Part shown: piece after piece, positions 20,480 to 59,044 of the stretch
Layout: every line of letters starts with the position of its first letter
Numbering within the stretch: position 1 is the first letter of the stretch
Source of the DNA: Closterium sp. NIES-65
Taxonomy: Eukaryota; Streptophyta; Zygnematophyceae; Desmidiales; Closteriaceae
Assembly: GCA_948144175.1 (NCBI GenBank)
Contig: CANXME010002053.1
Span: 372,001-436,000, forward strand
DNA: 64,000 nt
Reading direction: 5' to 3'
Notes under the pieces: model-generated
The model's input: the letters and a program-made list of their open reading frames with translations, nothing else
Told to the model about the DNA's origin: nothing
The model's database searches: none
Made by a program: the position numbers and the translations under genes

Positions 20480-23400
20480 ATGAATCCCGCACCGTTGGGT
20501 CGAGTCGCGAGCCGGCCGGCAGCGATAGGTCGCGTGGGGCGAATCCGGCTGCTGCTGGTGGCTCTGGGCGGCGCGATGATCCTCTCGGGCCTCCGATTCG
20601 TCAATCGCACGACGAACCTCGTCGCGCCTGCCAGCGACGAATTCGCGAACTTCACGAGTTTCGGCGAGCGATCACGCGAAGATTCTCCGCGGCCTGCATC
20701 GTCATCGCCAGTCGCGTCTTCTTTCCCCTCCTCCTCCACTAATATCCCTTCCGATACAAGCACATCTTCCTCATCATCATCTTCCTCGTCGTCGTCCTCC
20801 CCCACCTCGTTGCACAGCACGCCCTCGTTACAGTCACAACCAATCGCAGCCGTTCCACCCACTCCGATTAGCTCTCAACCAGATCAATCCTCAGCCGTCC
20901 GATCACCAGAAAACGGCTCTCAAATCTCTGGAATTGCAGTCCGTCCCCCTCCGGCCAAAGATAATACACAAGAAGCTGATAGTAACCCGAGTGGTAACCA
21001 GAGTGGTAACCAGGTGGACGCGACAGAGGACCCGGTATTGGCGCTGCAGCGAGCGGTGAAGCCCGAGGGGATTAAATGGTCGTTGCTCGCCGTCACGCCC
21101 ACCCACGCGCGCGCCATGCAGGTGGGTGGAATTGTCTGTCTCACTATAAGGCGCCTCAGAACAATCCTGCTGTTTGGAAACTCTGTGCCGAGTATTGATT
21201 GCGTTGTCAAGTAAAGACGTGGCTGCTGCTGGCTGTCACGCCCAACCACGCGCGCGCCATGCAGGTGGGTGTGGTGCGAGGCTGAAATCCCTTTTAGAGA
21301 ATTCTCTAGACCCTCCACTGCAATCACCCATGCAGGTGGGTGCCGTGAACCTCCCACACCCTCCCCTCTCTTATTTTGAGTCGACTCAAAACCACACCCT
21401 CCCCTCTCTTCCCGCTCCGCGCGCCCCGTTCCACTCGAGCCGAAGATGAGATGAGAGACCACCTTCGCACGCCCACCACGTCCGAAGATGAGATGAGATG
21501 TACTTCTTTTGTCTCGCCGCCTCTCTCCCCCCCTCCGCCTCTCCCTTCCCCTTTCCCTTCATTCCCGTCCCCCCTTCCTCCCCCCCACCACGTCCTCTAC
21601 TTCATCCGCCTCCCGGCCTATCTGTGATCGCTGTGACCCTTGGTGTCCTTCCCACGTGTAGCGAGGTTGTTTTTGAGACGTCTCACTTTTGATCGACTCA
21701 AAAGAGACGTCTCAAAAACAACCTCGCTACACGTGACCCTTGGTGTCCTTCCCCCTTACCACTCCCCTCTCCCCTTCCGCTTCCCAGGTCGTTTACTTCA
21801 TCCGCCTGGCTGCTTTTCTGCGCTCTGCGGGACCGCTGGTGTCCCTCGTCCCTTACCACTCCCCTCTCCCCTTCCACTCCCCCCCCCCCCCCCCCGCTTC
21901 CCCTACCCCTCCTCCCTCTTTCTCCCCCCACCAGGTGGTTTACTTCATCCGCCTGGCCGCCTATCTGCGCTCGCTGGGTCCCTTGGTGCTCTGGATTGTC
22001 ATAGAGGCGCCGCTTAAGGTACACTCCTTGTCGTGCGGTCACCCCTTTGACTGTTGAGTCGACTCAGCAGTCGCTCGCTGGGTCCCTTGGTGCTCTGGAT
22101 TGTCATAGAGGCGCCGCTTAAGGTACACTCCTTGTCGTGCGGTCACCCCTTTGACTGTTGAGTCGACTCAGCAGTCGCTCGCTGGGTCCCTTGGTGCTCT
22201 GGATTGTCATAGAGGCGCCGCTTAAGGTACACTCCTTGTCGTGCGGTCACCCCTTTGACTGTTGAGTCGACTCAGCAGTCGCTCGCTGGGTCCCTTGGTG
22301 CTCTGGATTGTCATAGAGGCGCCGCTTAAGGTACACTCCTTGTCGTGCGGTCACCCCTTTGACTGTTGAGTCGACTCAGCAGTCGCTCGCTGGGTCCCTT
22401 GGTGCTCTGGATTGTCATAGAGGCGCCGCTTAAGGTACACTCCTTGTCGTGCGGTCACCCCTTTGACTGTTGAGTCGACTCAGCAGTCGCTCGCTGGGTC
22501 CCTTGGTGCTCTGGATTGTCATAGAGGCGCCGCTTAAGGTACACTCCTTGTCGTGCGGTCACCCCTTTGACTGTTGAGTCGACTCAGCAGTCGCTCGCTG
22601 GGTCCCTTGGTGCTCTGGATTGTCATAGAGGCGCCGCTTAAGGTACACTCCTTGTCGTGCGGTCACCCCTTTGACTGTTGAGTCGACTCAGCAGTCGCTC
22701 GCTGGGTCCCTTGGTGCTCTGGATTGTCATAGAGGCGCCGCTTAAGGTACACTCCTTGTCGTGCGGTCACCCCTTTGACTGTTGAGTCGACTCAAAAGTC
22801 GCTCGCTGGGACCGCTGGTGCTCTGGATAGTCATAGAGGCGCCGCTTAAGGTACAGTCTTGCATCCGAACCGCGTTTTGAGTCGACTCAAAACGCGCCGC
22901 TTAAAGCCAGGGTCTCAAGTAAGCAAAGGAGCCATCAACCGCAAAGCAGTTGAAGCTAGGTTACCTAGTTAGTGCAGGCGAATTTCTGTTTGGTTGGGTT
23001 GGAAACCTACCCCCGTCAGTGCCTCAAAAGCAATTGCACAAGTTTTGAGTACGTGAGACTTTCGACGATTCTGGGGCACTTTAGGTTCGGATCCGAACCA
23101 TATTTACAAACCTGGAAGGTTCGGCTACACCTAGCGATTTGAATTTGTTTTTTACCCCTCGCTTCACCCCTCTTCAAACTTCACAATTCGCCAACCAATC
23201 ACAAACAAACTTGCACTGTCAACTGCAAAACACTTGCAGTACGTGAGACCCTGGCTTTAAGGCGCAGTCCGCAGTACGACTCTGGGAGAAACGCTTAAAA
23301 ACGCTTTTTTCAGATACAGTCCTCGATATGACCCTGGGGGAAACGCTTTTAGATTGTGTTTTGAGTCAATTCAGAACACTTTGAAGGCACTGTGTTTACT

Positions 23401-25653
23401 CTGAACTGATCCTTGGAAGAAAAACTTTGAAGGTGTTTCCAGACAAGCAAGGTGTGCAGTGCGGTGCCGCTCTTTTCGTGTGATGCTAAAGGTTAAAAGT
23501 AGCGTTCTTGTTGCTCCACCTCTCCATCCCTGTCGACTCCTGTCCACCCTCTCAACTCCCGTTTAGCCCTCTCCACCCCTCTCCACCCCTCTCCACCCTC
23601 CCTCATGCCTCCCCGGGAAGACAGAGGAGACGGCGGAGCTGCTGAAGCAGCACGCGGGGTCGTGCCTGCCAGCTGGTGACGCCAGCTGTCGGCGAATCAA
23701 CTACGTCCACCTGGAGACCCGCCGGGTGAGAGGCGGTTGAGCTGCTATGATTCTGTTTGGTTCTGTTCTGTTCTGTTCTGTTCTGTTCTGTTCTCGGACA
23801 TGTTGTTTCCTTGGAAGTGGGGGGGAGGGGAGGGAAGGAGGAGAAGGGGGGTGCGGGGGCGGGCATGTACACACACGTTCCGTTTTTGTTGATAATATAA
23901 TTTCAACCTCTTATATCAATAACTAAATGCATCATCGTCATTGTTCCATTCCATATTGTTCTTTTCCATTTTGTTCCGTTCCGCATTTCGTTCCATGCAT
24001 CATCAGGTGAACACATCCAATTGGAGCAAGGCAGTGCTGCAGCGGAACGCGTTGCTCTTGACTTGATTGTTGCTGCATGATCCCTAATGTTGCACAGACC
24101 ATCACTGCGAGTTGTCTGTAGCACTTCATTTCACTGCATGCACTCACCATGCACCATCAGGTGGAGTCATCCAAGTGCAACAAGGCAGTGCTGCAGCGCC
24201 ACCAACAGCATCCTCATAGTCGTGATTACACAGTTGTGATCCTCATCCCTGCATGCTTTTGAGATGAGACGTCTCAAAAGCAGCGCCGCAATCAGCATCC
24301 TCATAGTCGTGATTACACAGTTGTGATCCTCATCCCTGCATGCTCGACTATCATCATGCCATGCCATGCCATGCACCGCACGCACTCATCAGATGGAGAC
24401 GTCCAAGTGGAACAAGGCGGTGCTGCAGCTTCGAAGCTTTCCATCATTTGATTCCATTCCATTCCATTCCTATCATCCTTTTACTGCATGCACTCACCAT
24501 CAGATGGAGACGTCCAAGTGGAACAAGGCAGTGCTGCAGCATTGTCAACGATCTCCTGATGCTTCCATTCTCACATGCTCATCATTTAACTGTGTGCATG
24601 CATGCATCATCACCATCCCATGCACCATTAGGTGGAGACGTCCAAGTGGAACAAGGCAGTGCTGCAGCGCAACACCGCGCTCGACTTCATTCAGGAGAGG
24701 CGCATTCAAGGCGTCGTTTACTTCATGGACGATGACAATGCGTACCTCCCTCAGGTGGGGTTGACTCGTAGTACTGCGAAGTGTGATCGTACTGCCACGT
24801 GTCTCAAGAGGAGAGGCGCATTCAGGGCGTCGTTTGCTTCATGGATGGTGACATTGCGTACCTTCCCCAGGTAGGACTGTACTGAGAAATGACTGTAATG
24901 CGCCGTGACTGCCATTTGAAGTGAGTGGCTGTTGCGGAGGTTTTTCACTCGTGTGTATTTTTCCGAGAATGACTACAAGCACATTAGAAATGTGATTACT
25001 CTCACCCTCCCCTGGTACCGTCAATCTCTACTTATTGCTCAATGTTTCCTGTTTCGTTCCGTTTGTTGATAATTCAAGCTGAGAGTTCCATCGTTATTCT
25101 GCTGTTCGGTTAAATGCTATTTGACCGCCCCTTTTTTTTCCGAGGACCCCTGCTCTTAAAGCTGCGGTCTACATACTAAAATGGGTTTTGGGGGGTAATC
25201 TAGGTGCACACCCTTTCGCGTTTGTTGATTGAAGAGCGAATTGTTTTCTTTCCCAAAACACCTGTGCGAGGACTTCGTACCCCGCTGACGAGCGCAGTCA
25301 ATTTCGTGAGTGAGTTCGCTTTGGGGGGCCCACATCCGCGGAAAGGCGAAGATTTCTGCGCAGAACACAAACAACCAAGCGGAAATTTCTGCGCCCATCC
25401 CCCTCCTTCCTTCCGCATCGATTGTTCGTTTCTCCGACGGGACAGTGCTACCCTGTTTTCAAGTGATAAACCAGGGCCTGTACCTCGAAGTATGTAGATC
25501 GCAGCTTCAACATTCCCTTCACGAATGTCTGTTCTACTCTTGTGTGTCTCGAGTCAAGTTCATTACACAGCATCCAAAACGTTTGTCTCATGCCTTTTTC
25601 TATCATTTTCTCATTGCTTTCCCACAGGCCCAGTTCTTTATCGAGTTCCAGAG

Positions 25654-25747
<94 letters not shown>

Positions 25748-28700: not shown

Positions 28701-28932
28701 AGATGCGAGTTATTTGGAGCCATTAGCTAATGGATGCACACAAGTGCTGGTGTGGCACCTTCACGTGGAGGCAAACCGGCAACACATGTACCCCATTGGC
28801 TGGAGAGTGCCTCAACCCGTTGACCTTGAGCCTGCAGATGAATATGACACATGGCGGTTTATCATTGGTCGGCAAAGGCACCGGATTAGGGGCCTAGGCC
28901 CGAAGGACATGCCGTTTACTTACAGACCATAA
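20480..28932 (+). CDS. Family 43 glycosyltransferase (GT43), type II membrane protein, seven exons
   Basis: Exons 20480-21121, 21935-22018, 23621-23725, 24632-24754, 25786-26021, 28004-28084 and 28665-28932 join in phase to 512 residues. Exon 1 encodes a short cytosolic tail, a signal anchor (about 22-38) and a Ser/Pro-rich stem (poly-Ser near 90-107). The catalytic domain starts at [13 protein letters not shown], then [33 protein letters not shown] holds the metal-binding DDD (310-312). [26 protein letters not shown] and [13 protein letters not shown] follow, as in the C-terminus of GT43 enzymes. Plant members (IRX9/IRX14) act in Golgi xylan synthesis, animal ones are glucuronyltransferases; substrate here is unknown. 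Introns 1 to 5 are full of partial copies of the flanking exons, described separately. The functional copies were chosen because only they have both splice sites in matching phase. Confidence 0.9.
21653..21735. repeat. 83-bp near-perfect palindrome in GT43 intron 1
   Basis: CACGTGTAGCGAGGTTG... meets its reverse complement ...CAACCTCGCTACACGTG around a centre that itself contains GAGACGTCTC twice. GTGACCCTTGGTGTCCTTCC stands on both sides, so the palindrome lies at the junction of a short direct duplication. Confidence 0.9.
22071..22850 (+). repeat. 104-bp tandem array made from the 3' half of GT43 exon 2
   Basis: Seven identical 104-bp units start at 22071, 22175, 22279, 22383, 22487, 22591 and 22695, and a diverged eighth starts at 22799. 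Each contains the exon 2 tail encoding [16 protein letters not shown], its donor GTACACTCC, the start of the intron, and the palindrome TGAGTCGACTCA at the unit boundary. The parent copy is the real exon end at 21970-22018. Confidence 0.97.
22901..23260. mobile_element. 360-bp MITE with TTAA ends (piggyBac-like) in GT43 intron 2
   Basis: The ends TTAAAGCCAGGGTCTCA and TGAGACCCTGGCTTTAA are exact inverted repeats. TTAA on each side is the likely target duplication, and flanking GCGCCGC and GGCGC match the CCGCTTAAGG of an exon 2 end copy, so the element entered a duplicated exon remnant. The interior is non-coding and contains a separate palindrome GGTTCGGATCCGAACC near 23085-23101. A TTA-targeting Harbinger-like origin is an alternative. 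Confidence 0.75.
24006..24545 (+). repeat. Four partial copies of the 5' edge of GT43 exon 4
   Basis: Copies near 24006, 24158, 24391 and 24503 each start at an acceptor (CATCAG) and encode part of [12 protein letters not shown] before losing similarity. The functional exon is 24632-24754. A copy of its 3' edge, encoding [13 protein letters not shown]-like sequence with a donor, follows at about 24808-24871. The palindrome GAGACGTCTC with arms GCTTTTGAGATGA/CTCAAAAGC lies among them near 24255-24275. Confidence 0.88.
25655..25744. repeat. (TC)n microsatellite
   Basis: About 45 uninterrupted TC dinucleotides in GT43 intron 4. On its left (25620-25656) is a degenerate copy of the exon 5 acceptor and first codons; the real exon 5 begins on its right at 25786. 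Confidence 0.97.
26085..26700 (+). repeat. Partial copies of the 3' edge of GT43 exon 5
   Basis: The segment encoding [22 protein letters not shown] with its GTGAGC donor is repeated downstream of the real exon end (26021) at about 26090-26158, 26225-26292, 26390-26460, 26540-26600 and, degenerate, 26660-26700. Intron sequence after the donor is repeated with it. Two copies of the exon 6 start (27772 and 27861) precede the real exon 6 in the same intron. Confidence 0.9.
26961..27640 (+). repeat. 16-bp G-rich minisatellite, potential G-quadruplex tract
   Basis: About 42 copies of GGGAGGGAAGGGGGGA, almost identical, within GT43 intron 5. The plus strand is pure purine and has dense runs of three to six G. 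The long Gly/Arg- and Pro/Ser-rich frames across it are repeat artefacts. Confidence 0.97.
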
Positions 28933-30091: not shown

Positions 30092-32648
30092 GTAAGTTGA
30101 TTTTGAAGGCTTACTACCGTTGACACCAGTATGTTCGCCGAAGCGACCCTCGTGCTCCTCATTGATCGTGAATAGCGGTACTCAGGCTCCCCTTTTACCC
30201 CTATTTCCTCAGGTTTTGACGCTGACGGCTACGCTCAGCAAGATTGCTAGTTAATGCTCACACGATCTAGGTTCACGCTGAATGGACGTCCGCGATTTTT
30301 TCCAGGCATCGCGAGACTAACTTCTTGAGGTGACGGCAGACAATTGCTGTTAAAGCTCGAAGCTGCTTCACCATTTTTCCTCAGCCATTCATCTGTATAG
30401 TGGGTTCAGTATTTGCTTAGGATATATCTGGCATGCGCCTGCCAGTCTGTATATGCCTTGGTGCTTTTTGTCTGTGCATAGTTATTTTACCCATGTTTGG
30501 CACTGCATCAACCAAGATTGCAGCTGAATGAAGTCTCTTAATGCCTCCATAGCTCGTACTATTGGTAAATGATACTGGCAAATCCTGATGCCCATCATAC
30601 CGTATCAGGTTTTTGGCATATCTAATACCGGTAGAAAGTATTTTGCCACCTTCTAGTAGGATAATCTGGCAACAAATTCCACACAGGTTGATCCAAATCC
30701 CCACATTTCAAACCAACCATCAGCCGCACCACAATTCTACCGTAATGTAAATAAGAAAAGGTCGCAGAATTTCCGTACTGAACCGTAGCGCACCGTATCA
30801 CGTATTCTCCATTCCCCATCCCTCGGCTTTGCCAGATTCCCTCACCACCACCCCTCCCGCTTGTAAAGCGTATGTTATTCCTGAGCCTCCTATAATTCAG
30901 ATTCTGCTTGAACCTTCTCATACACTGGCCGTATTGCACCAATCATCCCTCTGCACTTTTCGCGCTCAGGCCAGGTATAATGCATTCGCGTACTTCGTCC
31001 TAGCTCTTGAGTCTCGCTGCTCGCGCACAAGCCCTGTGGGGCAAGCAACTTGAAATGGCCGCCATGGTAGCCGCACACTCTCCTTCCACAGTAATAGCTC
31101 CGTGGTGGTTTCGTTTGCACCGAGCTTCCCGTTCAACTGTGTTTCCAGGGTCATTCCCCCCCGTACCCACGAGTACTCCGCGATTTAAACCGATTTCTAC
31201 CAATTTTTACCGGGAATTTCGTATTTACCGGAATCCACTGTATCTCCCAGCGGCTCAAACAGCTCGACAAGATGACATATTCTTAGCTCCCTTATGGGCC
31301 ATTTGGGTCTTGTTTCATGCGACGTCGTGCGACTTCGAGTAACTTCGTACGGCTTCATCCATGCAGCATGACATCACGGTCGCCACCCGAGGGCTCTGAT
31401 TGGAGACTGACATTGGTCGCAAACATTTGTTAAGCACCAGATTACGGCGCTGGAACCACTTCTGAGGCGCCTCAAAAAAGTCGCCACTTGAGAGCTCCGA
31501 TTTAAGACTGACATTGGTCGAAGGCAACTTATAAACACAGAACTACGGCGCTGGAACCAACTGTTACTAGACGCTTGCTTTGGCCAATGAATGCATTCTG
31601 AATCGCAGCGTGAGTTTCAAAGGGAGGGGGATTATTTTCTGGAGCAGGCTACGGAACGTCAGGAAAAGTGGACCGCGTCAGGAAGAAGACGGCGCAGCGT
31701 GAAGGCATTGTTCCCAAACGCAAGACGCATCGTCATCGGCGTCATTTCCGTTAACAAACGCGAGACGCGTCGTCATGGATCCGCCATCGAAGATCATTCC
31801 CGTCAGCTTACGAATCGCGGAAATCGCGTTCGCGGTCGGCTCCATAGGGTGAAGACTTCGGACCCTGACTCAAAAGTCTTTTAACCTGGTTTCTCATGGC
31901 TTACTGTTTCCTCTCCTCCTCACTGTACCATCATCACCCTTTCAAGTTAAATTCGCCTGTTACCTCCGTCAAAATCACATAGTTGGGTAATCCACGTTCT
32001 TATTGCGGTAATTTCTCTGAGTTCCCGTTTTTATTGACTTAGGACCAAGGTTCTGTGCTTCAGCCTGTGCTTCAGTCTGTACTTCAGATTGAGCTTCAGT
32101 CTGTGCTTCAGTTTTCTTTCCCAGTCTACATGACTGACCCCCGCTCATCTCTGCCTGCATCTGCTGCTCACCCACCCGTCTGTTCCCATCAAATTTCCCA
32201 TGAAGCTCAATTACCGTTCTGAGAATCTGAGACGTCTCAGATTCTTGAACCAGACGCCCGCTGCTGCTCGCCCTGTCCACATGGGTGAATACTCCATCAT
32301 TCCCGCACCTCACCCACCTATCTCTTCACACCTCCTCACACCTCCTCACACCTCTTCACACCTCATTCCTCCCCACACCTCCACACCCCTCCTCCACCCC
32401 TCCTCACCCCTCCTCACCCCTCTTCACCCCGCTGCACCCCTCCTCATCCGTCCCCATCAGGCTGTCAGTAAAGCTGGACCACCGAATGAGCCAGGCGCCA
32501 ACGCTTCTGCTCAACCTCACCCTGGGCATGGCGGGACTCTTCGCGAGCATGTTACTGTGTTACATCCACACCTCCTGCTTCGTCTACCTCCACACGCCTC
32601 CTCATCGCCCCTCACCCCTCTTTACCCCTCCTCACCTGTCCGCATCAG
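30092..32648. other. Region without a firmly recognised gene; contains a palindrome-split duplication
   Basis: A 97-codon frame at 31591-31884 is Arg-rich with no domain. Two related segments of about 85 bp (about 31378-31460 and 31478-31560) each run from GTCGCCAC to ACGGCGCTGGAACCA and are separated by the palindrome TGAGGCGCCTCA (31463-31474). A partial copy of the next gene's exon, encoding KLDHRMSQAPTLLLNLTLGM, lies at 32460-32600. Pyrimidine-rich CCTCCTCACAC repeats fill 32310-32450. The missing first exons of the gene at 32649 should be here. Confidence 0.5.
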
Positions 32649-35600
32649 GCTGTCACTGAAGCTGGACGACCGAATGAGCCAGGCGCCCACGCTTCTTCTC
32701 AACCTCACCCTAGGAATGGCAGGGTTGTTTTCGAGCGCCATGTTACTGTGTTACATCCACACCTCCTGCTTCGCCTACCTCCACACGACCAGGGTGAACC
32801 TGCTGCTGCAGGTCATTGAAAGCAACGTGAGTCCATGCATGCAATAGTTCAAGATGAGTCGACTCGAGTCTAGATTTACACGAGTTGGTTCTCAAGATAT
32901 GCTCCAAAGAAAGGTCTACGAGATAAAACTTTCTGCTACGTTTTACCTCCAAACGACCAGGTGGCTTGAACCTGCTGCTGCAGGTCGTCGAAAGCAACGT
33001 GAGTCCTTTTGAAAGTCTCACGGGTCACATGCGTGAGTCCATGCGTGCATCTAGATTTCACATGAGTCCCACGGGTCACATGCATGAGTCCATGCGTGCA
33101 TCTAGATTTCACATGAGTCCCACGGGTCACATGCATGAGTCCATGCGTGCATCTAGATTTCACATGAGTCCCACGGGTCACATGCATGAGTCCATGCGTG
33201 CATCTAGATTTCACATGAGTCCCACGGGTCACATGCATGAGTCCTCTAATGCTATACTATACTGCTATGCCTGCTCCCAATGCCTCCTCCCTGCTCGTCC
33301 CTCCACAGTTCTTTACACTCATGGTGCTCGTCTCTCATGATTACAGCAGTCCGTTCACGGGCCACCATGACTCATTACAACGCGGCTCAACTTCCTCTCC
33401 TGCTCCCACTGGCCCCCCTGTTCGTCCCTCTGCAGTTCTTCACACTCGTGGTGCTTGCAGCAGCCAGTGCGCGGGCCACCGCCATCACTGACTCATACGG
33501 GCTCAACTGCAGCGGGTATGTGCTGCTGTGGGTGCTGCTGGGTGCAGCTCGGTGCTGCTGGGTGCTGGCGGGTGCTGCCGGGTGCTGCTGGGTGCTGCTG
33601 TGTCTACCAAGGCTGATAGGCATGGCACAACAGGCTGCCTAGCTGCCGATAGGTCTCAATTTGTTCTCTCCTGCAAACATGTCGCCCATGTCACCTGCAA
33701 GGACTATCACATGCGGTGACAGCTTCCCATGCCCTTCTCATGCCGCCCTTTCCTTGCCCGCCCCTTTCTCCACCGCCCCTCCTCATGCCGCCCCACCCCG
33801 TCCCATGCCGCCATGCCCATGCCGCCCGTTCCCATGCCGCCCCTTCCCATGCCGCCCCATCTCATGCCACCCCATCCCATGCCACCCCATCCCATGCCAC
33901 CCCATCCCATGCCACCCCATCCCATGCCACCCCATCCCATGCTACCCCGTCCCATGCCACCCCATCCCATGCTACCCCGTCCCATGCCACCCCATCCCAT
34001 GCTGCCCCGTCCCAGGCTGCTCCCCATTCCGCCCCTTCCCATGCCACACCTTGCGATGGCATCCCTTGGCAAGGCGCCATGGTCACCGGGTCAGCTCAAG
34101 TCATCCTCATGTTTGATGGGTCGTGCCAGTGACCTGCTGGCTCTGCTCACAGCGCTCTCCTTTGGGGCTGCCTGCTGGTGAGTCGGTGTAACGCACATCA
34201 CCGCACAGCACAGCTCTGCACCGCGCCACACCTGTGGTGCCTGATGGGTCGTGCCAGTGACCTGCTGGCTCTGCTCACAGCGCTCTGGTGAGTGAGACAC
34301 GTGTCGTGAATCCCCTCTGCTGTCCCTTCCTTCTCACTCTCCCTTGCATCCCTGCCTGACTTCCTCACTCCCTCTCCCTCCACCTCTCATCCAGGTGACC
34401 GGCTCATCCCTTCTTCCTCCTGGCGTATGTAATCACTCTGTTCTGATCCCCTCCTCGTATCTCAGGCTTCCCGAAACAAGACTTAACTCCCTCGCAAGGG
34501 CTCCGCCGATTTGCTTCAGCTCCTCTCTACTGCTAGTTCCCCGTGGTTTAGGAAATCACAATTGCAGTAAACGAGAAACATACAAGCAAAAAGCAACGAG
34601 TCTGAGCGCTACCCCAGTCTACATCCCCTCCTGCCTAGGTGCCTTGTCCCGCAAGCTACCTCTACTCCTAAGCGCGAGTCAGCCGAGCTGATCGCGTAGG
34701 CTTCAAGGTGCTAGCTGGGTCCCACTCGGCCCACTAGGCATGCACCGCCTTCCAGCCTGGTGAATGGCGAATTGAATTCCCAGGCTGGCTGGAATCGAAT
34801 TCGCCACCAACCTCCCCCCTAACCACCTCGAAATCCTCAGCAGCTCGACTCTGTATAGTACAGTAACATTCCAAAAGAGCAAACAAAGTAAAATGCAAAA
34901 AGCAGTAAACTATAGTACACCTCACCTTGGCTGCTGTGTAATTCACACTTAGTTGCCAGCTAAGTGTTAATCACGCGACAGCTGTCGTGAATCCCCTCTG
35001 CTGTCCCTTCCTTCTCACTCTCCCTTGCATCCCTGCCTGACTTCCTCACTCCCTCTCCCTCCACCTCTCATCCAGGTGACCGGCTCATCCCTTCTTCCTC
35101 CTGGCGTATGTAATCACTCTGTTCTGATCCCCTCCTCGTATCTCAGGCTTCCCTGCCCCCTCCCGTGACTGAGCACGCACCCGAGCTGCTCCAGACACGG
35201 GATCCAATGCCTGAGGCTTCTCCCTTCCCGCCCTGGCCACGTTGGTGATATGCTCCTTCAGGTACTCCCCTCGATCATCCTCCAGCACTAGCACCCCCGA
35301 CTCCCTTACCTCTTTCACCCTCCATCGCTCCGGTCCCACAGCTAAGTCCAGCGTATCTCGCTTAGCCCTGCGCAGGTACACCTCCTGCCCCGCTTCCACT
35401 TGGTGACTCTTTCCTCCCATCCCTCCTGCTTTGCGCTGCTGGTACCGCCTTGCATCCCTCAGCTGCGCCACGTGTAGATTATCCAAGGCAGCTGGAGTCA
35501 GCTCTTTCAGATACCTCGCCCTCTTCTCCGCTAATCCCGCCCACAGGCTCGGCTCGTCCGCTTCAATCGTCGCCCGAGAGCAGCTTCGGTGCATCCACAG

Positions 35601-46500: not shown

Positions 46501-49500
46501 GTCAGTGCTCTCAAACATCATAACCAGCACGGCCGTTGATTCCAGCTTTGTGTGTGTGACCGTTGTTGAGTCGACCCAAACGTCTGAACATCGACAAGCA
46601 ACAACAGCACGAGCGCTGGCAGCCGTACATCTCATCGCCCTCCCTGCATCACAGCCGTTGATTCCACGGTCAGTGATCTTAAGCTGAACAGCTAGCCTTG
46701 TGTGACTGTTGAGTCAACAGCTCAACACATCTCTCCCCTTTTTTGAGACGTCTCGAAACAGCTAGCCCTGTGTGACTGTTGAGTCGCAAGGAGTTTTTGA
46801 GAATTCTCTCCCCTTTTCTCTCCTTCCACGAATGTCTATTCGGCGCCTTAGATACTCGTTTCTCCCCCTCCCAACATCCCCCTCTCCCCCCCCCTCCTTT
46901 TATCCCTCCGCCAGGTCTGGTTAGGGGAGCACAAAGGGGGCCATGCGTCTGGTCTATGCTTCTGGACTAAAAGCGTAGTGTTGAGTCGACTCATAAAAGG
47001 GCCATGCTTCTGGACTAAAAAGCGCCCTGAACATTTGTTTCTCCCCCTCTCAAAATATCACACCACCCCCTCCCCCCCCCCCCCGGTCCTTCCTCCCCCC
47101 TCCCCCCCCCCCCCGGTCCTTCCTCCCCCCTCCCCCCCCCCCCCGGTCCTTCCTCCCCCCTCCCCCCCCCCCCCGTCCCCCCCCCCGGTCCTTCCTCCCC
47201 CCTCCCCCTTGATCAGGTGTGGTGGGGGCAGCACGAGAGGGCCATGCTGCTGCCCTCACTGTACAACGACACACGAGATTGCCTCAACTATTCCTCCTTT
47301 CTCCACCTCCCAACATACCTCCCCTACCCTCTCCCCATCTACCAGGTGTGGTGGGGGCAGCACGAGAGGGCCATGCTGCTGCCATCGCTGTACAACGACA
47401 CACAAGATCGGACGGCTCTTATTCAATCTGAGTTCGCCACCATCCAATCGGTAACACACTGCCAATTGCCCTTGCTGGCTTGCCCTTTCTTGCTGGCTTG
47501 CCCTTTCTTGCTGGCTTGCCCTTTCTTGCTGGCTTGCCCTTTCTTGCTGGCTTGCCCTTTCTTGCTGGCTTGCCCTTTCTTGCTTGCTTACCCTTTCTTG
47601 CTGGCTTGCCCTTTCTTGCTTGCTCATAATAGCATATCACTCACAGTTCTCTCCCTCCCCCCCCTTGCTGCCGCACTCTTTGCTGCCCTCCCTTTGCCCC
47701 CCCCCACGTATTGCCACCCCTTGCTAACCGTCCAACCTTTTGTTTTAGCTCGTGCACGCCTCCCCCCTCCCCTTCCCTCCTCCTCTTCTCCCTTTCTTGT
47801 CAGTTGAAGACAGGTGAGCTGCGAAGACCTTGAACTATCCTTCTCCCCTTTCCTCCTCTTCTCCCCTTTTCTCTCCCTATTCCCCCCTCCAGGCGACACC
47901 CATCACCCACACCTGCACTGTTCCCCGTTTCTCCCCCTCATCATTCCACCATCCCTCCTCCTCTTCTCCCCTTCTCTCCTCCTATTCCCCCTCCAGGCTC
48001 TCACCCATCACCCACACCTGCATTCGTTCCTCCCGAACCTGACCTACGACCAGTTCTGCCATGCCTACTCGCTAGGTACGGCATGTGATGCATTTACAGA
48101 ACTAGTGCAGACTGGTGCAGGTGCAGAGTCAAACCTGCCTTGAATGGTGCAGGTGCAGAGTCAAACCTGCCTTGACTGGTTAAGGTGCAGCGTCAAGCCT
48201 GCCTTGACTGGTGCAGGTGCAGCGTCAAGCCTGCCTTGACTGGTGCAGGTGCAGCGTCGAGCCTGCCTTGACTGGTGCAGGTGCAGCGTCAAGCCTGCCT
48301 TGACTGGTGCAGGTGCAGCGTCAAGCCTGCCTTGACTTGTGCAGGTGCAGCGTCAAGCCTGCCTTGACTTGTGCAAGCTGGGTCAAACTTGGGCTGGCTG
48401 GGGTGCAGGGTGGGTCAGGGTGGGGCAGAGTGGGGCAGGTTAGGCAGGGTGGGGCAGCTTTCATACAACAGTGCGACATAGGGCCAAGATGCTAGCTCAC
48501 TAGGTGTGGATCAAGTTCTCCTTTTCCCACCCCCCTCCTCCAACTCCCACCCCACCCCCTCCTCCACTCTCTCTGACTCACTTTCCCTCCTCTCCCCTTC
48601 CCTCCCCTGCCTGCCGCAGCACAGTGTGTTCCCGGGCGTGGGGGATCGAAGCTTTGGGCAATCTTGCTCTGGTGAGTGAGTGAGTGATTAATTGTTGCCC
48701 TGCTGTTACAGGGTGTTTTCCAAACAGATCATAAGTACCCTCCAAATTTCACGGGTGTGGGGAACCTCATGCACGGACATGGTTAATTACCCGCTCACAC
48801 ACTCTCCTCCCACACACAATCTCCTCCCACACACACTCTCCTCCCTCTCACACTCTCCTCCCTCACCACCCCTCACCATTTCTCACCACCCCTCACCATT
48901 TCTCACCTCCCATCACCACTCCTCACCACCCCTCACCATTTCTCACCTCCCCTCACCACTCCTTACCACTCCTCGCCACCCATCACCACCCTTCACTCAT
49001 TCCCAGCAACCCCCAGGTAGCTTTTGCCGACATGGTAAACCACAACCCTCACACGCCCACACACGCTTCTCCTCCCACACCCCCCCCACCACCCCGCTGC
49101 ACCCATCACTGCCCCTCATCAAACCCCCCAGGTACCATATGCCGACATGATGAACCACAACCCCCACTCGCACACTCTCCACCCTCACCACCGCTCACCA
49201 CCCCTCACCACCCCCCAGGTACCATATGCGGACATGATAAACCACAACCCCCACTCGCACACTCTGCTGTGCTACGACGAGGAGCAGCAAGCAGTCGAGG
49301 TGCCTTTTGAACCCTCTATATCCCTCTCGCTTTCTACACCCTTCTCGCCTTGTATGCCCTGCTTGCATTTCCAACCACAATACCCACTCGCACACTCTGC
49401 TGTGCTACGATGAGGAGCAGCACGCCGTTGAGGTGCCCTTCGGGCCCCACCACACCCTTCTCCACACCCTTCTCCACACCCTTCTCCACACCCTTCTCCA

Positions 49501-52500: not shown

Positions 52501-54209
52501 CGGTGCAGGTGATAAGGGGAGCAGGTGATAAGCGGCGCAGGTGATAAGGGGAGCAGGTGATAGGCAGGCGGTGCAGGTTATTATTAGATCATGTGCAGTT
52601 CAAATGTATGATGTGGTGATAGTTACGTTGCCTCTTTACTGTTGTTATGAAGTTTCTGAATTGTCCACTGCTATCGGTCTTGTGAAATGAGGGTGTTTGT
52701 GAGACGTCTCATTGCTATCATATTACGTGTCCATTGCTATCTGTCTGGACCTGTCTGGACCTGTCTGGACCGTGAATCACATGCTTCTCACCCTTGATGT
52801 CTTTCCTTCACTTTGTGCCTTCTCCTGCCCTCCGCCCTCCCACATCTCCCCCCCGCCATCCGCATCCCCCTCTCCCTCCCCCTCTCCTTCCCCCTCTCCT
52901 CCCCCCTCCCCATGACCCCTCATACCACGCAGGTGCGAGTTAGCTATGGCGATCTCTCCAGCGGTGTGCTGGCTTTTGACTCAGAGCAGCCCCCCTTTTG
53001 AGGCGCCTCAAAAGCTTTTGACTCAGAGCAGCCCCCCACCCCTTCTTTTCCGTCCCGCCTCCGCACTCCCCCTCCCGTGCCCCATCACCCCCCCTCATCC
53101 CACCCAGGTGTTAGTGAGCTACGGAGATCTCTCCAGTGGTGTGTTGGCGCTTGACTTTGGCTTCACTGTGCCTGACAACCCGCACGACTCTGTGAGTGCC
53201 GCACGACTCTGTGAGTGCCGCACGACTCTGTGAGCGAGCGGGGCGCGACCCTTCCCTGCTGTCACCTGTCCAGTCGACTCAAAAATCTCCAGTGGTGAGC
53301 TGGCGGTGGACTTTTGGCTTCACTGTGCCTGACAACCCGCATGACTCGGTGAGTGGGGCATGACTGTGTGAGTGGGGCATGACTGTGTGAGTGGGGCATT
53401 GCTCTGCTGGTGGAGGGGTCCTTTTTGGGGAGGGGCCTTCTTGGGGAGGCGCAGCTGCTGCCTTTTGACCCGCCTTGCCTCAGGATACTCTTAGCACCTT
53501 GTATGGCCTTGGCACACCCTCCTTGGCACACCCTCCTTGGCACACCCTCCTTGGCACACCCTCCTTGGCACACCCTCCTTGGCACACCCTCCTTGGCACA
53601 CCCTCCTTGGCACACCCTCCTTGGCACACCCTCCTTGGCACACCCTCCTTGGCACACCCTCCTTGGCACACCCTCCTTGGCACACCCTCCTTGGCACACC
53701 CTCCTTGGCACGTGGAGCTGTGTGTGCTTATAACGAGCAGCAGCAACCCCCGTGACGCACCTCTCAATGTGCCCAAGAGGTGGCTTCTGGGGGAGGCACA
53801 GCTGCTGCCTCATGCCATCCTCTTCCTCCTCCTCCCCCCCATTCCCTCGCCCTCGTTCCCAAGCAGGTGGAGCTGTGTGTGCTTGTAGCCAGCAGCACCA
53901 CCCCCCACGACACACAGCTCAACGAGGCCAAGAGGCGCCTTCTGGGGGAGGCGCAGCTGCTGCCGTGTGACTCTGCCAGAGGCGCCTGCTTTGTGCTCAA
54001 GTGAGTGCGAGTGTGAGTGCGAGTTTGAGTGTGAGTGTGAGTGTGATTATGAGTGTGAGTGTGATTATGAGTGCGAGTTTGAGTGTGAGTGTGATTATGA
54101 GTGAGTGACTGAGTGCAAGCGTGTGTGTCGCCGCGGTTGTGATTGTGAGTGCGAGTCCAAGGGAGTGTGTCAGGATGGCCGAGTTGGTCTAAGGCGCCAG
54201 TTTCAGGTA

Positions 54210-54241
<32 letters not shown>

Positions 54242-54269
54242 TCCTGACATTGTAGCCCAGACCTTTTGT

Positions 54270-54300
<31 letters not shown>

Positions 54301-57300
54301 TCCTGACATTGTAGCCCAGAGATTTTGTTAGCTCGTGTTTGCCCTTACTATTCGTCATCCCTTCTACCCTTGCGAGTGCGAGTGCTGCAAGCGAGGCCGT
54401 TGTTTCCTGTACAGCAGTTGTTTCCTGTACAGCAGTTGTTTCCTGTACAGCAGTTGTTTCCTGTACAGCAGTTGTTTCCTGTACAGCAGTTGTTTCCTGT
54501 ACAGCAGTTGTTTCCTGTACAGCAGTTGTTCCTGTACAGCAGTTGTTTCCTGTACAGCAGTTGTTTTCTGTACAGCAGTTGTTTTCTGCATCAAAACGGC
54601 CATTCTGAATAGAGTCGACTCAGGGGTCTCTTCTGGGGGAGGCGCAGCTGCTGCTGTGTGACTCTGCCAGTGGCGCCTGCTTTGTGCTCAAGTGAGTGCG
54701 CGTGCGAGTGTGAGTGAGTATGAGTGTGGGTGCGTGCGAGTGTGAGTGAGTATGAGCGTGGGTGCGTGCGAGTGTGAGTGAGTATGAGCGTGGGTGCGTG
54801 CGAGTGTGAGTGAGTATGAGCGTGGGTGCGTGCGAGTGTGAGTGAGTATGAGCGTGGGTGCGTGCGAGTGTGAGTGAGTATGAGCGTGGGTGCGTGCGAG
54901 TGTGAGTGAGTATGAGCGTGGGTGTGTGCGAGTGTGAGTGAGTATGAGCGTGGGTGTGTGCGTGCTGCAGCAGAAGCCATTGTTTTCTGTGGTAGGAGCC
55001 ATTGCTGTGTGGAGTCAACTCAAAGGTCTCTTCTGGGGGAGGCGCTTCTGCTGCCGTGTGACTCTGCACCTGCTTTGTGCTCAAGTGAGTGCGAGTGGAG
55101 TGATTGTGAGTGGGAGTGAGAGTGGGGGTGTGAGTGCAAGTGGGAATGGGAGTGTGTGAGATTGTGAGTGCGAGTGTGTGAGTGTGCGGGAGTGTGAGTG
55201 CGAGTGGAGTGCGTGTGAGTGTGAGTGCAAGTGGATTGAGTGTGAGTGTGAGTGCGAGTGGATTGAGTGTGAGTGTGAGTGCGAGTGGATTGAGTGTGAG
55301 TGTGAGTGTGCAGGATTGACTGCCAGTCATAGGATGCCTGCATGGAGATTTTCCCCTCTTCTGCCTGCATTCAGCTCAAGTGAGTGATTTTTGCGTATTT
55401 TAAAAAATTATAAAATAACTCCAAAGCATTTTCAAGAGTGGTTGCGTGCATTTGGCCCAGGTGAGGAGTGACTGAAGCAGAAACCGTCAGTCGTGTCGAA
55501 CAAAATGTCTCATCCGGTGGAGGTGCGGCTGTTGCCTTGCCAAGTGAGGTTGAGTGAGTGAGTGAGTGAGTGGGCGAGTAAGCAAGTGAGGGAGAGAATA
55601 AGTGAGCGGTGAGTGAGTGTTAGTTTTTTTACTTGTGCCCTGTGACTATTCCGCTGGTGCCTCCTTCATGCTCAAGTGAGAGAGTGAGTGTGAGTGCGAG
55701 TGTAAGTGTCTAAGATGTCGTTTCGCAGTTCGGACACCAGCGAGGGTTCCCCTTTTCACTACGCTTTCAGGAGTATACTTCGGGTTTCTTCCGACTTGGT
55801 GAAACACTACTGATTGGCCACGTTCACCAACATAACTGGGGACAAAACCAATTGACCAATTGATTTGAAACAATGTTCCACTTGCATCTTCAGAATACCC
55901 TGGTTCAACCATCTGTATGTGCAATGCAAGTGTTTCTTTGGGTAAGTGTTGGAAAAGCCGTCCGGGTCAGATGCTGTAGGGTAAGAAGGTGCAAGCCATT
56001 GATGTCCGAACTTCGCTTGGTGTCCGAACTTCGGAACGAGCTCTAAGAACGGAGTTGCCCGCCTGCGCTTGTGTATGAAGAAGTGTTTTGAGACGTCTCA
56101 AAACGAGCTCTAAGAACGGAGTTGCCCGCCTGCGCTCGTGTATGAAGAAGTGTTTTGAGACATTTCAAAACCAGCTCTAACAACGGAGTTGCCCGCCTGC
56201 GCTCGTGTATGAAGAAGTGTTTTGAGACGTGTCAAAACGAGCTTTAAGAACGGAGTTGCCCGCCTGCGCTCGTGTATGAAGAAGTGTTTTGAGACGTCTC
56301 AAAACACTTGCCCGCCTGCGCTCGTGTATGAAGAACTGTTTTGAGACGTCTCAAAACGAGCTCTAAGAACGGAGTTGCCCGCCTACGCTGGTGTATGAAG
56401 AAGTGTTTTGAGACGCCTCAAAACGAGCTCTAAGAACGGAGTTGCCCGCCTGCGCTCGTGTATGAAGAAGTATTTTGAGACGTCTCAAAACGAGCTCTAA
56501 CAACGGAGTTGCCCGCCTGCGCTCGTGTATGAAGAAGTGTTTTGAGACGTATCAAAACGAGCTCTAAGAACGGAGTTGCCCGCCTGCGCTCCTTTAATAA
56601 AGTAGTGTTTTGATTGAGACGTCTCAAAACGCGCTCTAAGAACAGAGTTGCCCGCCTGCGCTCATGCATGAAAAAGTGTTTTGAGACGTGTCAAAACGAG
56701 CTCTAAGAACGGAGTTGCCCGCCTGCGCTCGTGTATGAAGAAGTGTTTTGAGACGTCTCAAAACGCGCTCTAAGAACGGAGTTGCCCGCCTGCGCTCGTG
56801 TATGAAGAAGAGTTTTGAGACGCCTCAAAACGAGCTCTAAGAACTGAGTTGCCCGCCTGCGCTCCCACCCTCAGGCTCCATCGCGACTCCGCTAGTGTCG
56901 GTGCCTCCTTTGAGCACAAGTGAATGTGTGCTTGGAAGGAATTTACCTTGCGACTTTTGAGACGTCTCAAAATTCCTTTGAGCACAGGTGAATGTGTACT
57001 CGGAAGGAGTTTATTTTGTGATTCTGACAGTGGCCCGCCTGCCCTCCCACCCACTTCTCCTTCCTCCCACCCACCCACTAGGCGCATCGACTCGCCCGCA
57101 TCGGATGGCAGGGGCTTGCCCTTCGCGCTGCGAGCCATGGCACGAATCCTCACAGCCAGCAGCGAGGAGCAGGTGAGCAGTGATAATAGCCATGTAACCA
57201 GTGGGTTAGCATGTAACCGTTGCACCACAGCGCAGCAGCCGATGGGGGCTTGCCCTTCACGCTGCGAGCCATGGCACGGTGTCTCACAGCTGCCAGCGAG

Positions 57301-59044
57301 GAGCAGGTGAGCAGCAACGGGTTACCACATGATTACCAGCGGGTTACCGGATTGTTGCCATGTAACGGTTACACCACGGTGCAGCATAAGATGGCAGCGG
57401 GTGAGCAGCTGCCAGCGACGAGCGGGTGAGCAGCAAGGGGTTACCAGCGGGTTACCAGAGTGTTACCATGTACCCGTAGTACCAGGGGCTTGCCCTTCGC
57501 CCTGTGAAAAATGGCTCGTCTCCTCGCAGCTGTTTTTGAGTCGACTCAAAAGCAGTCTCCTCACAGCTGCCACGACGAGCGGGTGAGTACCCATGGGTTA
57601 CCAGCAGGTACACGACATGGCACCACGGTGCAACCAGTTACCTTTTGAGATGTCTCAAAACCTGGTGAGCATTCTTAGTGCTTATTAGTGATCAACGAGA
57701 AGGCGTGTTTGCCCTTTGTGTTCAAGGCGTGTAGCAAGAGTCCACACGGCCTGCAGTGATGGTGGTGCCTGCCACGTCAGATCGAGCACAAAAGGACGGC
57801 TGGATTTTCTTCAGAGAAATCTCAAAAGTGGATTACATTAAAGCGTCTTCACGGGTAACTGCCACTCCATTTCAAGTTGGCTTCTGAAAGTCTCTCAAAA
57901 ACCTGCTTGCCTCTTGAGAATGCTCAAAAGCATTTCAGGCAACGTTTACTTTGGATTCGACTCAATTTCAGGCAACCTCACAGCGAAGGCAATTGCCATT
58001 CCACGTCAAGACCTGTCCCTCCCTTTCAACCCCACGCTCCCCTTCCACCCCCTCCTCTCCCCATCGCGGATCTCTGCTGTCTCCTGCAGTGTGGCGATTT
58101 CTGAGGCGCCTAAAGTATCCCCCCACGCTCCCTCCTTCCGCCCCGTCCTCTCCCCATCCCCGCCGTCCGCTTTCTCCCTCAGCTGCAATTCCTGCGAGAA
58201 GAGGGGCGGCAGCACAGCGGCACGGTCGGGAGACGGCCAATCAGATCGCAGGGAGGGGACGGAGGGGGGAGAGAGGGATGGGGGAGAGGAGGAGGGGGAG
58301 GGGGAGGAGGGGAGGAGGTAGCTGGGGTGGAGGGCTGGGAGGGCAGGGCGATGGAGCTGCTGTTGTTGCTGGTGGAAGAGAGGGTTGAGCACTTGATGGG
58401 AGCACGACAGGTGAGATCTGATGAGCACTTGATGGGTGCACGACAGGTGAGATCTGATGAGCACTTGATGGGTGCACGACAGGTGAGATCTGATGAGTTT
58501 GTAGGGGTGCAGGTGCACGACAGGTGAGATCTGATGAGTTTGTAGGGGTGCAGGTGCACGACAGGTGAGAGGTAGAAAGAGCACAGGGTGTGTGTGGCAT
58601 GTGAGTGCTGATGCTTGGAAGGCAGGGCAGGGCGACGGAGCTGCTGTTATCACTGGTGGAAGAGAGGATAGAGCACTTGATGGGTGCACGACAGGTGAGA
58701 GGTGGCGAGAGCACAGGGTGTGTGTGGCATGTGTGTGGGATGGCAGAATATTGCGTGCTGATGCTTGTAAGGCAGGGCGATGGGGCTGTTGCTGTTGCTG
58801 GTGGAAAGAGAGGATAGAGCACCTGATGGGTGCACGACAGGTGAGACATGATGGGTGCATAGGGTGCTGAGGGGTGCTGAGGGGTGCACAAGGGTGCATG
58901 GAAAAACGGCGTAAATTGGTGGAGCCAAGCATGATGATGATGGATGGCAGGGCTGTTTCGTGGCTGCTGCTGTTGCTGGTGCGAGAGCGAGCAGAGCAGC
59001 TCATGGGTGCATTCGGCAGGAATGGAAGGCAATTTGATGCCTAA
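43564..59044 (+). CDS. SET-domain protein-lysine methyltransferase (Rubisco LSMT/SETD type), at least 12 exons
   Basis: Exons 43564-43809, 43929-44026, 45515-45578, 46041-46400, 47346-47450, 47997-48075, 48625-48671, 49219-49299, 52297-52332, 53108-53191, 53867-54000 and 57082-57172 join in phase to 475 residues. Residues 1-82 could be an organelle transit region. The SET motifs follow: [88 protein letters not shown] and [24 protein letters not shown] and SYG are the cofactor and substrate-site motifs of the LSMT class, which methylates lysines in proteins such as Rubisco, aldolase or actin. The start of the substrate-binding domain is in exons 11-12. The C-terminus is not resolved; likely pieces are 58183 onward ([13 protein letters not shown]) and a last exon 58951-59044 ending [10 protein letters not shown]. 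Exon 4 carries a His/Gln-rich repeat. Confidence 0.87.
44411..44712 (+). repeat. 91-bp tandem repeat derived from the end of SET exon 2
   Basis: Units starting at about 44430, 44521, 44612 and 44703 contain GAAGACGGGCGGAGGACGGT AAACG, a diverged form of the exon 2 end and donor (GAAGACTGGCGGAGGGCGGTAAGC at 44010-44032). Two larger partial exon copies encoding [12 protein letters not shown] lie at 44115-44172 and 44335-44395. Confidence 0.9.
44743..45090. repeat. 12-bp TTTGACCACC-type minisatellite
   Basis: About 29 copies of TTTGACCACCWY with a repeating three-variant pattern (CTC, ACT, ATT) lie in SET intron 2. They create Thr/Leu-, Trp/Ser-Lys- and Gly-Gln-rich spurious frames. Confidence 0.95.
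45236..45390. repeat. 14-bp CTCCAAAAACACCC repeat after a palindrome remnant
   Basis: About eleven copies start directly after TTTTTGAGACGTCTACACCC, which is half of the recurrent palindrome. Confidence 0.9.
46156..46345 (+). repeat. In-frame His/Gln/Asp repeat within SET exon 4
   Basis: CACCAACACCAA and CACCACCAAGACCAG repeats encode [29 protein letters not shown] and a second [16 protein letters not shown]. The frame stays open between WARIALFLL and [10 protein letters not shown], a place where LSMT relatives have a variable loop. It could instead be removed as a small intron, but I see no matching splice pair. Confidence 0.8.
47060..47215. repeat. C-rich 37-bp repeat before a SET exon 5 copy
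   Basis: Four units of long C runs with CGGTCCTTCCTCCCCCCTCC. It precedes the partial exon 5 copy at 47217-47272 ([19 protein letters not shown]); another degenerate copy ([11 protein letters not shown]) lies at 46916-46950. Confidence 0.88.
47465..47625. repeat. 18-bp TTGCTGGCTTGCCCTTTC repeat
   Basis: About nine copies in the intron just after SET exon 5. Confidence 0.93.
48110..48380. repeat. 33-bp repeat in the intron after SET exon 6
   Basis: Eight near-identical units of GTGCAGCGTCAAGCCTGCCT TGACTGGTGCAG. No coding relationship was seen. Confidence 0.93.
49452..51842. repeat. 12-bp minisatellite of about 199 copies (CCTTCTCYACAC)
   Basis: About 2.39 kb of CCTTCTCCACAC and CCTTCTCTACAC in mixed order, with rare ACATCC variants. 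It lies in SET intron 8 and is bracketed by two partial copies of the exon 8 end (about 49369-49432 and 51848-51917, both encoding a form of LLCYDEEQ). The 830-930-codon frames on both strands are products of the period being a multiple of three. Confidence 0.98.
52318..52575 (+). repeat. 29-bp array of the SET exon 9 end and donor
   Basis: GGGGAGCAG|GTGATAA, the last codons and donor of exon 9, alternates with GCGGTGCAGGTGATAA for about eight units. Each unit contains one or two CAG|GTGATA donor-like sites. Confidence 0.92.
53505..53712. repeat. 14-bp CACCCTCCTTGGCA repeat
   Basis: About fourteen copies in SET intron 10. A partial copy of the exon 11 end (GGGGAGGCGCAGCTGCTGCC, near 53440) lies on its left and one of its start (53715-53815) on its right. 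Confidence 0.95.
54169..54249 (+). tRNA. tRNA-Leu, anticodon CAG
   Basis: 81 nt that fold as a class II tRNA. The acceptor stem GTCAGGA pairs with TCCTGAC and A is the discriminator base. The D arm TGGCCGAGTTGGTCTAAGGC is the A box. Anticodon arm CCAGT-TTCAGGT-ACTGG has anticodon CAG, a variable arm TCCGAAAGGGC follows, and GGTTCAAATCC is the B box. It lies in SET intron 11 on the same strand. A TTTT at 54263-54266 can terminate RNA polymerase III. Confidence 0.93.
54270..54308 (+). pseudogene. Truncated copy of the tRNA-Leu 3' half
   Basis: TGGTCCGAAAGGGCGTGGGT to the end of the acceptor stem is repeated exactly, followed by the same TGTAGCCCAGA flank. It lacks the D arm and anticodon, so it is a duplicated edge and not a gene. 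Confidence 0.93.
54401..54595. repeat. 15-bp GTTTCCTGTACAGCA repeat
   Basis: About twelve copies; each includes TGTACA. It ends just before a TGAGTCGACTCA-like palindrome (54611-54622) and another partial copy of the exon 11 end. Confidence 0.94.
54600..55380 (+). repeat. Partial copies of SET exon 11 end and a GTGAGT-derived minisatellite
   Basis: Copies of the exon 11 end, with CTGGGGGAGGCGCAGCTGCT and the donor CTCAAGTGAGTG, occur at about 54625-54695 and 55025-55090. Between and after them, GTGAGTATGAGCGTGGGTGC GTGCGA-type repeats (54690-54965, 55090-55310) look like expansions of the donor and first intron bases. A sequence close to GAGTCGACTC or GAGTCAACTC stands left of each exon copy. 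Confidence 0.88.
56030..56870. repeat. Palindrome-bearing tandem array, unit about 67 bp
   Basis: About a dozen units, each GAGCTCTAAGAACGGAGTTG followed by CCCGCCTGCGCTCGTGTATG and AAGAAGTG, then the palindrome TTTTGAGACGTCTCAAAAC. The palindrome core varies between units (GACGTC, GACGCC, GACGTG, GACGTA) mostly in the right arm. Confidence 0.95.
57245..57600 (+). repeat. Partial copies of SET exon 12 with donors
   Basis: GGGGCTTGCCCTTCACGCTG and following bases to GAGGAGCAG|GTGAGC recur at 57244-57308, with shorter pieces at about 57400, 57485-57530 and 57555-57585. Palindrome TTTTGAGTCGACTCAAAA at 57534-57551 separates the last two. Confidence 0.88.
58346..58860 (+). repeat. Copies of a C-terminal SET exon edge
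   Basis: A segment encoding [17 protein letters not shown] with a GTGAGATC donor recurs at about 58346-58415, 58630-58695 and 58783-58845. The donor-side half alone is repeated at 58415-58565. The likely last exon at 58951 ([18 protein letters not shown]) is a further diverged form. Which of these are spliced into mRNA cannot be decided here. Confidence 0.8.

Follow-up and report, generated by a model that had tools for sequence, protein, structure and literature searches.

The window analysed here comprises 64,000 nucleotides of the Closterium sp. NIES-65 genome (G000:C1755:372001-436000). On its reverse strand, a frame of 1,550 aa at 35566-40215 corresponds to a Gypsy-type polyprotein with reverse transcriptase, RNase H and integrase domains; a further match of this frame, to C5 cytosine DNA methylase, has an E value of 1e-4 and lies just past the Pfam cut-off. 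A second reverse-strand frame (473 aa, 2633-4051) matches the Pfam domain NDC10_II, a domain of Crypton-like recombinases. At Rfam gathering thresholds the window gives only tRNA. The 3' part of the tRNA-Leu gene at 54168-54329 is tandemly duplicated together with downstream sequence, with a period of 59 bp.

Dispersed in the window is a palindrome, hereafter P, of the form TTTTGAG-core-CTCAAAA with a minimum length of 18 bp; X stands for a copy of its flank, and arrays are written (X-P)n-X. The recurrent TTTTGAG/CTCAAAA palindrome reported in the initial annotation is real. The window contains 14 exact matches to TTTTGAG-N4-CTCAAAA versus none in 100 dinucleotide shuffles, and 40 sites within three mismatches of TTTTGAGNCGNCTCAAAA (shuffles: mean 0.26, maximum 2). 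Many of these sites belong to arrays at 21968-22855 (period 104) and 56035-56864 (period 67), so that the window contains fewer than two dozen independent events.

A copy with the TCGA core at 21374-21391 lies between identical 19-bp direct repeats (X at 21354-21372 and 21392-21410), forming an X-P-X unit at 21354-21410. It had been placed at 21376-21393; the other six coordinates given for the palindrome are exact. Within 21633-21753, delimited by 21-bp direct repeats (21633-21653 and 21733-21753), lies an interrupted long-armed ACGT palindrome, CACGTG-N12-TTTTGAGACGTCTCAAAA-N12-CACGTG. The satellite at 21968-22855 is built of units of 104 bp, and every unit carries a degenerate P (TGTTGAGTCGACTCAGCA). 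The TCGA copy at 22875-22892 is part of a 26-bp palindrome (22871-22896) and has only a weak flank repeat (11 bp, 25 nt off on the left). A 22-bp P derivative with the ACGT core (24258-24279) is surrounded by 65-bp direct repeats (span 24193-24344), and a GCGC copy with one mismatch is found at 31460-31477. The TCGA copy at 46429-46446 is followed by partial extra half-copies and lies between 26-bp direct repeats (46399-46424 and 46499-46524), which are separated by a 74-bp gap. Two decayed copies are located nearby, namely, an ACGT relic at 46741-46758 (TTTTGAGACGTCTCGAAA; 29-bp direct repeats, span 46687-46785) and a degenerate TCGA copy at 46979-46996 (17-bp identical direct repeats, span 46956-47020). 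The cleanest minimal case is the GCGC copy at 52996-53013, where the 18 bp of P are all that stands between identical 24-bp repeats (52972-53037). In the array at 56035-56864, ACGT-core palindromes occupy the junctions of 67-bp units (exact at 56086, 56287, 56339, 56473 and 56746; core ACGC at 56406 and 56813). The ACGT copy at 56955-56972 has 40-bp direct repeats with 90% identity (span 56906-57013), the TCGA copy at 57534-57551 has 15-bp direct repeats (93%), and for the copy with the decayed core ATGT at 57643-57660, also present in contig C1798, no flank repeat was found. The duplications at 21374, 52996 and 56955 are the three that the initial annotation had quoted, and all of them stand.

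Abundance, cores and anatomy of the palindrome

The assembly scanned contains 874,075,685 bases (~874 Mb) in 2,400 contigs. The genome-size paper on the Closterium peracerosum-strigosum-littorale complex, in the part available, covers assemblies of 438-975 Mb; NIES-65, which was sequenced as a haploid, has 876 Mb, and over half of its shared gene groups are duplicated (PMC10407611). A family search gives twenty full-length rbcL matches of equal score; they are spread over nine contigs and can fall on either strand of one and the same contig, which reflects repeated plastid contigs in the assembly. An rbcL copy from this search scores best against PDB chains several of which are land-plant Rubisco, ahead of the Chlamydomonas chain 1gk8. 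A genome-wide scan, as proposed in the initial annotation, recovers 30,327 sites with TTTTGAG-N4-CTCAAAA versus 4 for the same pattern read backwards, that is, one P per 29 kb. Bases were read in a sample of 257,685, made up of the window, the whole of C6, 30 kb of C9 and 10 kb of C10. The sample was chosen for holding P (first pattern matches plus the window), so that its density of one per 4.4 kb is not representative. It contains 58 P sites; removal of 21 array members left 37 independent loci, which were used for the counts of flank repeats, symmetry and arm lengths.

The contigs that carry the sample sites have a G+C content of 55-58%, and the sites stand near a Mon2-like frame and genes of LTR retroelements; they are thus nuclear. 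On C6 the surroundings of LTR-element ORFs seem poor in P, with one site within 1.5 kb versus 5.8 expected in a small comparison of four hand-drawn blocks that includes array members. The exact pattern was also found in at least 120 scattered stretches of a prokaryote contig collection (one site each in the 80 listed) and in 11 stretches of a viral contig collection, again with one site each, which suggests no outside source of P.

Four self-complementary cores prevail. TCGA accounts for 13,080 sites and ACGT for 5,047 in genome-wide searches. Cores of the form S-CG-S and N-WW-N were found at 5,883 and 2,899 sites, respectively; GCGC was present in 50 of 50 and AATT in 46 of 50 listed sites, giving by extrapolation from these 50 sites each about 5,880 GCGC and about 2,700 AATT copies. 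The tabulation by core covers 26,909 of the 30,327 sites, the other 3,418 lying outside it. Provided that the listed sites are typical, the four cores together make up ~26,700 sites, or about 88% of the total. CCGG was seen neither among the 58 sample sites nor among the 50 S-CG-S sites listed. The cores GTCGAC, GACGTC and GGCGCC named in the initial annotation are thereby recovered, with GAATTC to be added as the fourth, and three of the 14 window sites are imperfect (ACGC twice, ATGT once). In the sample, 51 of 58 sites are perfect through the centre, and the remaining seven are one change off a self-complementary core: ACGC, ATGT, ACAT, TTGA, TCAA and AATC each differ by a single change from one of the main four. 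The earlier argument that a self-complementary core is not the product of decay of one repeat is borne out by these figures.

Symmetry extends beyond the 18-mer but fades outward: at distances 1-9 from it, two-sided symmetry is retained at 32, 21, 20, 18, 14, 14, 12, 10 and 8 of the 37 loci. The two arms differ in length by at least 3 at 12 of the 37 loci and have the same length at 16, as measured against arm consensuses derived from these same loci. P thus combines a constant centre with ragged outer ends. Transposons are usually the opposite, with constant tips rather than a constant centre. In some palindromes the outer arms match over a long distance, so that the element is larger than 18 bp: the outer arms at C9:117378 are symmetric over 11 nt per side, and those at C9:119827 are likewise long and symmetric. 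The outer arms are also class-specific, which argues for several lineages rather than one template. The base adjoining the 18-mer is C in 27 of 38 TCGA arms and G in 17 of 18 ACGT arms. The TCGA class reaches AGGTGAC...GTCACCT, and its full 32-bp form is present in 321 copies. In the ACGT class, several copies carry CACGTG, or a variant that differs from it by one or two bases (CATGTG, CTCGTG, CGCGTG, CTTGTG), at a distance of exactly 12 bases ahead of TTTT, either on one side or on both.

Flanking duplications, arrays and evidence for insertion

The initial annotation proposed that the palindromes mark duplication junctions and suggested a test of flank homology. A locus was scored when a direct repeat with a score of at least 14 both ended and started within 30 nt of P. 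Abutting direct repeats, 16-98 bp long, were found at 29 of the 37 loci, a clear excess over random places (112 of 1,000), other palindromes (9 of 190) and places 400-600 bp away (34 of 148); the proposal therefore holds. The last control also indicates that the surroundings of P are repeat-rich, and eight loci have no repeat above the threshold. A scan that makes no use of the motif gave a matching picture. After removal of low-complexity repeats 315 pairs were left, 145 of them short direct-repeat pairs with 8-90 bp of filler. Thirty fillers contain a palindrome of at least 10 bp, which in 25 cases has the form GAG-core-CTC, the core being one of the main four, and a few pairs share one palindrome; the others are a TA run and GAGCCGGCTC, both of which passed a loose motif filter, and three unrelated sequences. 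Examples on other contigs include GAGTGACTTTTGAGAATTCTCAAAAGTCACTC between 44-bp direct repeats at C9:119776, GTGACTTTTGAGTCGACTCAAAAGTCAC between 36-bp direct repeats at C9:127223 and a 23-bp insert between identical 60-bp repeats at C6:109237.

Inspection of 22 events by eye showed inserts that comprise the palindrome and additional sequence, from a few bases up to a few dozen. In the same 22 events, no target consensus was visible at the ends of X, and the inserts contained neither a Pol III promoter nor an A-rich or simple 3' tail. One SINE-like feature is present, namely target duplications of variable length, as is a feature of staggered-break duplication, namely repeats of tens of bp where a single copy stood before.

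Three comparisons indicate that the palindrome and the flank duplication arise together. First, at 21671-21717 of the window, a TCGA palindrome one base short lies within the ACGT palindrome, and the 10-bp sequence AGACGTCTCA is duplicated on both sides of it; by eye, this nested event parses as TTTTGAGACGTCTCA / CTTTTGATCGACTCAAAAG / AGACGTCTCAAAA. Second, of the tandem paralogous segments at C6:103814-104320, two are without P, and the third has the structure X-P(GCGC)-X-P(ACGT)-X. Judging from the sequence that follows each X, the ACGT event is inferred to be the younger; the start of its duplication (C6:104113-104320) is one base away from the GCGC palindrome's edge. Third, C6:109299 has P and a 60-bp duplication, whereas in the diverged homologue C2181 the flank is present once and the palindrome is absent. 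P is absent from C2181 at all three places compared with C6, with good alignment on both sides at one only. The region C6:103000-109999 has two copies with ~99% identity (C347, C1658) and two diverged ones (C429, C2181; 68-91% by piece), which look haplotype-like in the first case and like diverged duplicates in the second. Altogether, insertion with target duplication is very probable.

Between the near-identical (~99%) copies compared, by coordinates or by sequence, no segregating isolated insertion was found, the difference at 57534 aside. The stretches with palindromes 21374, 21671 and 22875 equal their C1798 counterparts in length within two bases. The stretch with P at 57534 is absent from the near-identical C1798; its gap there is bounded by repeats, which gives no clean empty site and points to probable loss by deletion in C1798.

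Arrays vary as well. The array at C6:107990-108155 contains five P and six X and thus follows the (X-P)n-X pattern, with one more X than P. Near-identical copies differ in the number of P units, with two slightly degenerate ones in C9 and four in C1759. By match coordinates, the satellite at 21968-22855 is 520 bp (5 x 104-bp units) shorter in the 99% copy on C1798. Other repeats were observed on these contigs. At C6:136185-137500 there are minisatellites with unit lengths of 24 and 20 bp, in which the unit is derived from half a palindrome with a GCGC-type core (TTTTGAGGCGCCTAAAA..., TTTTGAGGCACTTT...). Positions 470-551 of C9:120001-130000 contain a second dispersed palindromic repeat of 44 bp (two 21-base arms with GT between), followed by a T run; among the matches listed, it has 12 copies on other contigs with 96-99% identity, in addition to a homologous stretch on C1759.

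A candidate mechanism and its rivals

We interpret P as an ultrashort palindromic insertion sequence that enters at staggered breaks, where fill-in duplicates the target and seeds minisatellites, and assign this reading a probability of roughly 0.6. It builds on direct observations (the abundance, the four cores, the flank duplication, paralogues and one homologue lacking both P and the second flank copy, the nested insertion and the change in array length). P would come in several sizes, from a minimum of 18 bp up to ~32 bp in the TCGA class and 54 bp in the ACGT class (CACGTG-N12...N12-CACGTG). The process would start with a staggered break that has no evident target sequence and, since the target duplications are long and variable, no fixed spacing. 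The same short tail, presumably copied from one template, would then be put on both 3' ends. The end of the template would set the constant inner sequence, and the tail would end in ...TTTTGAG-NCGN-3' or ...AATT-3'; candidate template RNAs would start with NCGNCUCAAAA or AAUUCUCAAAA. Pairing of the two tails through the self-complementary tetramers at their ends, followed by fill-in, may then produce P, and fill-in of the overhangs would duplicate 10 to about 100 bp, giving X-P-X. Slippage or unequal exchange could later turn it into (X-P)n-X minisatellites.

Joining of two tails would account in one step for a loop-free palindrome, a self-complementary core, a constant centre, ragged arms and direct repeats. 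We put this route forward tentatively, on the grounds of the constant centre and the ragged outer arms. Slightly more doubtful is the fuller proposal of a nuclear DNA-addition system that places the same templated tail on both 3' ends and joins them by a self-complementary tetramer; such a system might be a repair 'adapter' or the smallest mobile DNA known and, in this alga, a main source of new minisatellites. The main alternative to two-tail joining is a mobile double-stranded palindrome with defined ends. The long symmetric arms at C9:117378 and C9:119827 fit it better than they fit independently started tails, and the loci with equal arms (16 of 37) also speak for it.

MITEs are dispersed, non-coding elements with inverted repeats and with direct repeats on both sides. 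P could be an ordinary DNA transposon family of this kind, shrunk to two fused terminal repeats and still mobilised by a transposase from another locus. Its inverted repeats, its abundance, the duplications at its flanks and the class-specific symmetric outer arms are all consistent with such an origin, which we nevertheless consider unlikely. Target duplications of DDE transposases are short and fixed, but those of P range from 10 bp, in the nested case, to 98 bp. Furthermore, in P it is the centre that is constant and not the tips, the outer arms differ by core class, and an element of 18-54 bp has no interior; MITEs are not known to be as short as 18 bp. Longer elements ending in TTTTGAG/CTCAAAA or in CACGTGTA/TACACGTG would be expected, and inspection by eye of lone arms in the 257,685 bases revealed no longer element with P arms.

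Among the three readings offered in the initial annotation, a very small mobile palindrome fits best. The other two, a nuclease target and snap-back repair, put the palindrome first: it would be a site of breakage or replication stalling, and hairpin repair (snap-back or template switching) would duplicate one flank. For a green-algal plastid, indel hot spots at short palindromes have been described, according to the part of the study available (PMC7043297), and both the variable length of the arrays and the duplication at C6:104113-104320, whose start is only one base removed from another palindrome, could be understood in the same way. However, a separate means would be required to spread 30,327 palindromes, and a pure form of either reading leaves unexplained why P and the second flank copy are absent together in the nested case, in local paralogues and at the C2181 site, so that we hold a palindrome-first origin to be improbable. 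Parts of these ideas may survive in the insertion reading, namely the staggered break and the joining of ends through a self-complementary core.

Less probable still is that P serves as a binding site under selection, with a dimeric DNA-binding protein as one possible partner, and owes its spread to the expansion of minisatellites. The dyad symmetry and the resemblance of GACGTC and CACGTG to bZIP/bHLH sites are in its favour, but fixed TTTTGAG arms, mainly four cores and abutting duplications at most loci would not be expected of binding sites, and some copies of P decay. Whole-genome amplification can create artificial palindromes, as stated in the accessible part of one report (PMC6218980), but an adapter or hairpin artefact of sequencing or assembly is hardly credible here, given that the flanks are direct rather than inverted repeats, that copies of P are mutated and that separate contigs of near-identical sequence share a given P at one position, as judged from the sequence in some cases and from coordinates in others.

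Relation to known palindromes and significance

Bacterial REP elements, moved by TnpA-REP, are very short dispersed palindromes that form imperfect hairpins and have no long target duplication. P resembles them in its size and dispersal and differs in being loop-free, nuclear and flanked by long duplications. Closest to P among described systems are organellar palindromes of green algae and ordinary small tandem duplications. The former include the palindromes of Volvox carteri mitochondrial and plastid DNA and of the Chlorosarcinopsis eremi plastid, which are short, numerous and mostly non-coding, as is P. As far as the available parts of these papers go, the Volvox palindromes are termed selfish, insertion of palindrome into palindrome in C. 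eremi is tied to break repair, and nuclear copies in Volvox are judged to be inert organelle transfers (PMC2670323, PMC7043297). Both groups are organellar and have loops (3-5 nt in Volvox, 3 nt in C. eremi), whereas the P sites read are nuclear and loop-free with fixed arms; target duplications are not reported in those parts, whereas P is flanked by long and variable ones. LIMP palindromes of Lobosphaera mitochondria are dispersed and lineage-specific and can join in rearrangements; unlike P, they are mitochondrial, number 19 copies and consist of pentamer repeats around a 7-nt loop (PMC4524435, in the sections available). With regard to the duplications, breaks with complementary 3' overhangs give rise to small tandem duplications through Pol alpha-primase/CST fill-in followed by end joining; this is a break-associated duplication such as we propose for P, but the portion of the paper at hand describes no junction palindrome of fixed sequence (PMC8355091). 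Literature searches, whose coverage left out most subscription papers, returned no nuclear precedent for P and no paper with its motif strings, and 'palindrom' is absent from the main text of the Closterium genome-size paper (PMC10407611).

If the insertion reading is true, an 18-bp insertion sequence can reach tens of thousands of nuclear copies, and the birth of minisatellites would be readable step by step, from a single X to X-P-X and then to (X-P)n-X. Fixed arms, few cores and measurable duplications make the mechanism testable, in a group of algae that is close to land plants and for which assemblies of several strains exist.
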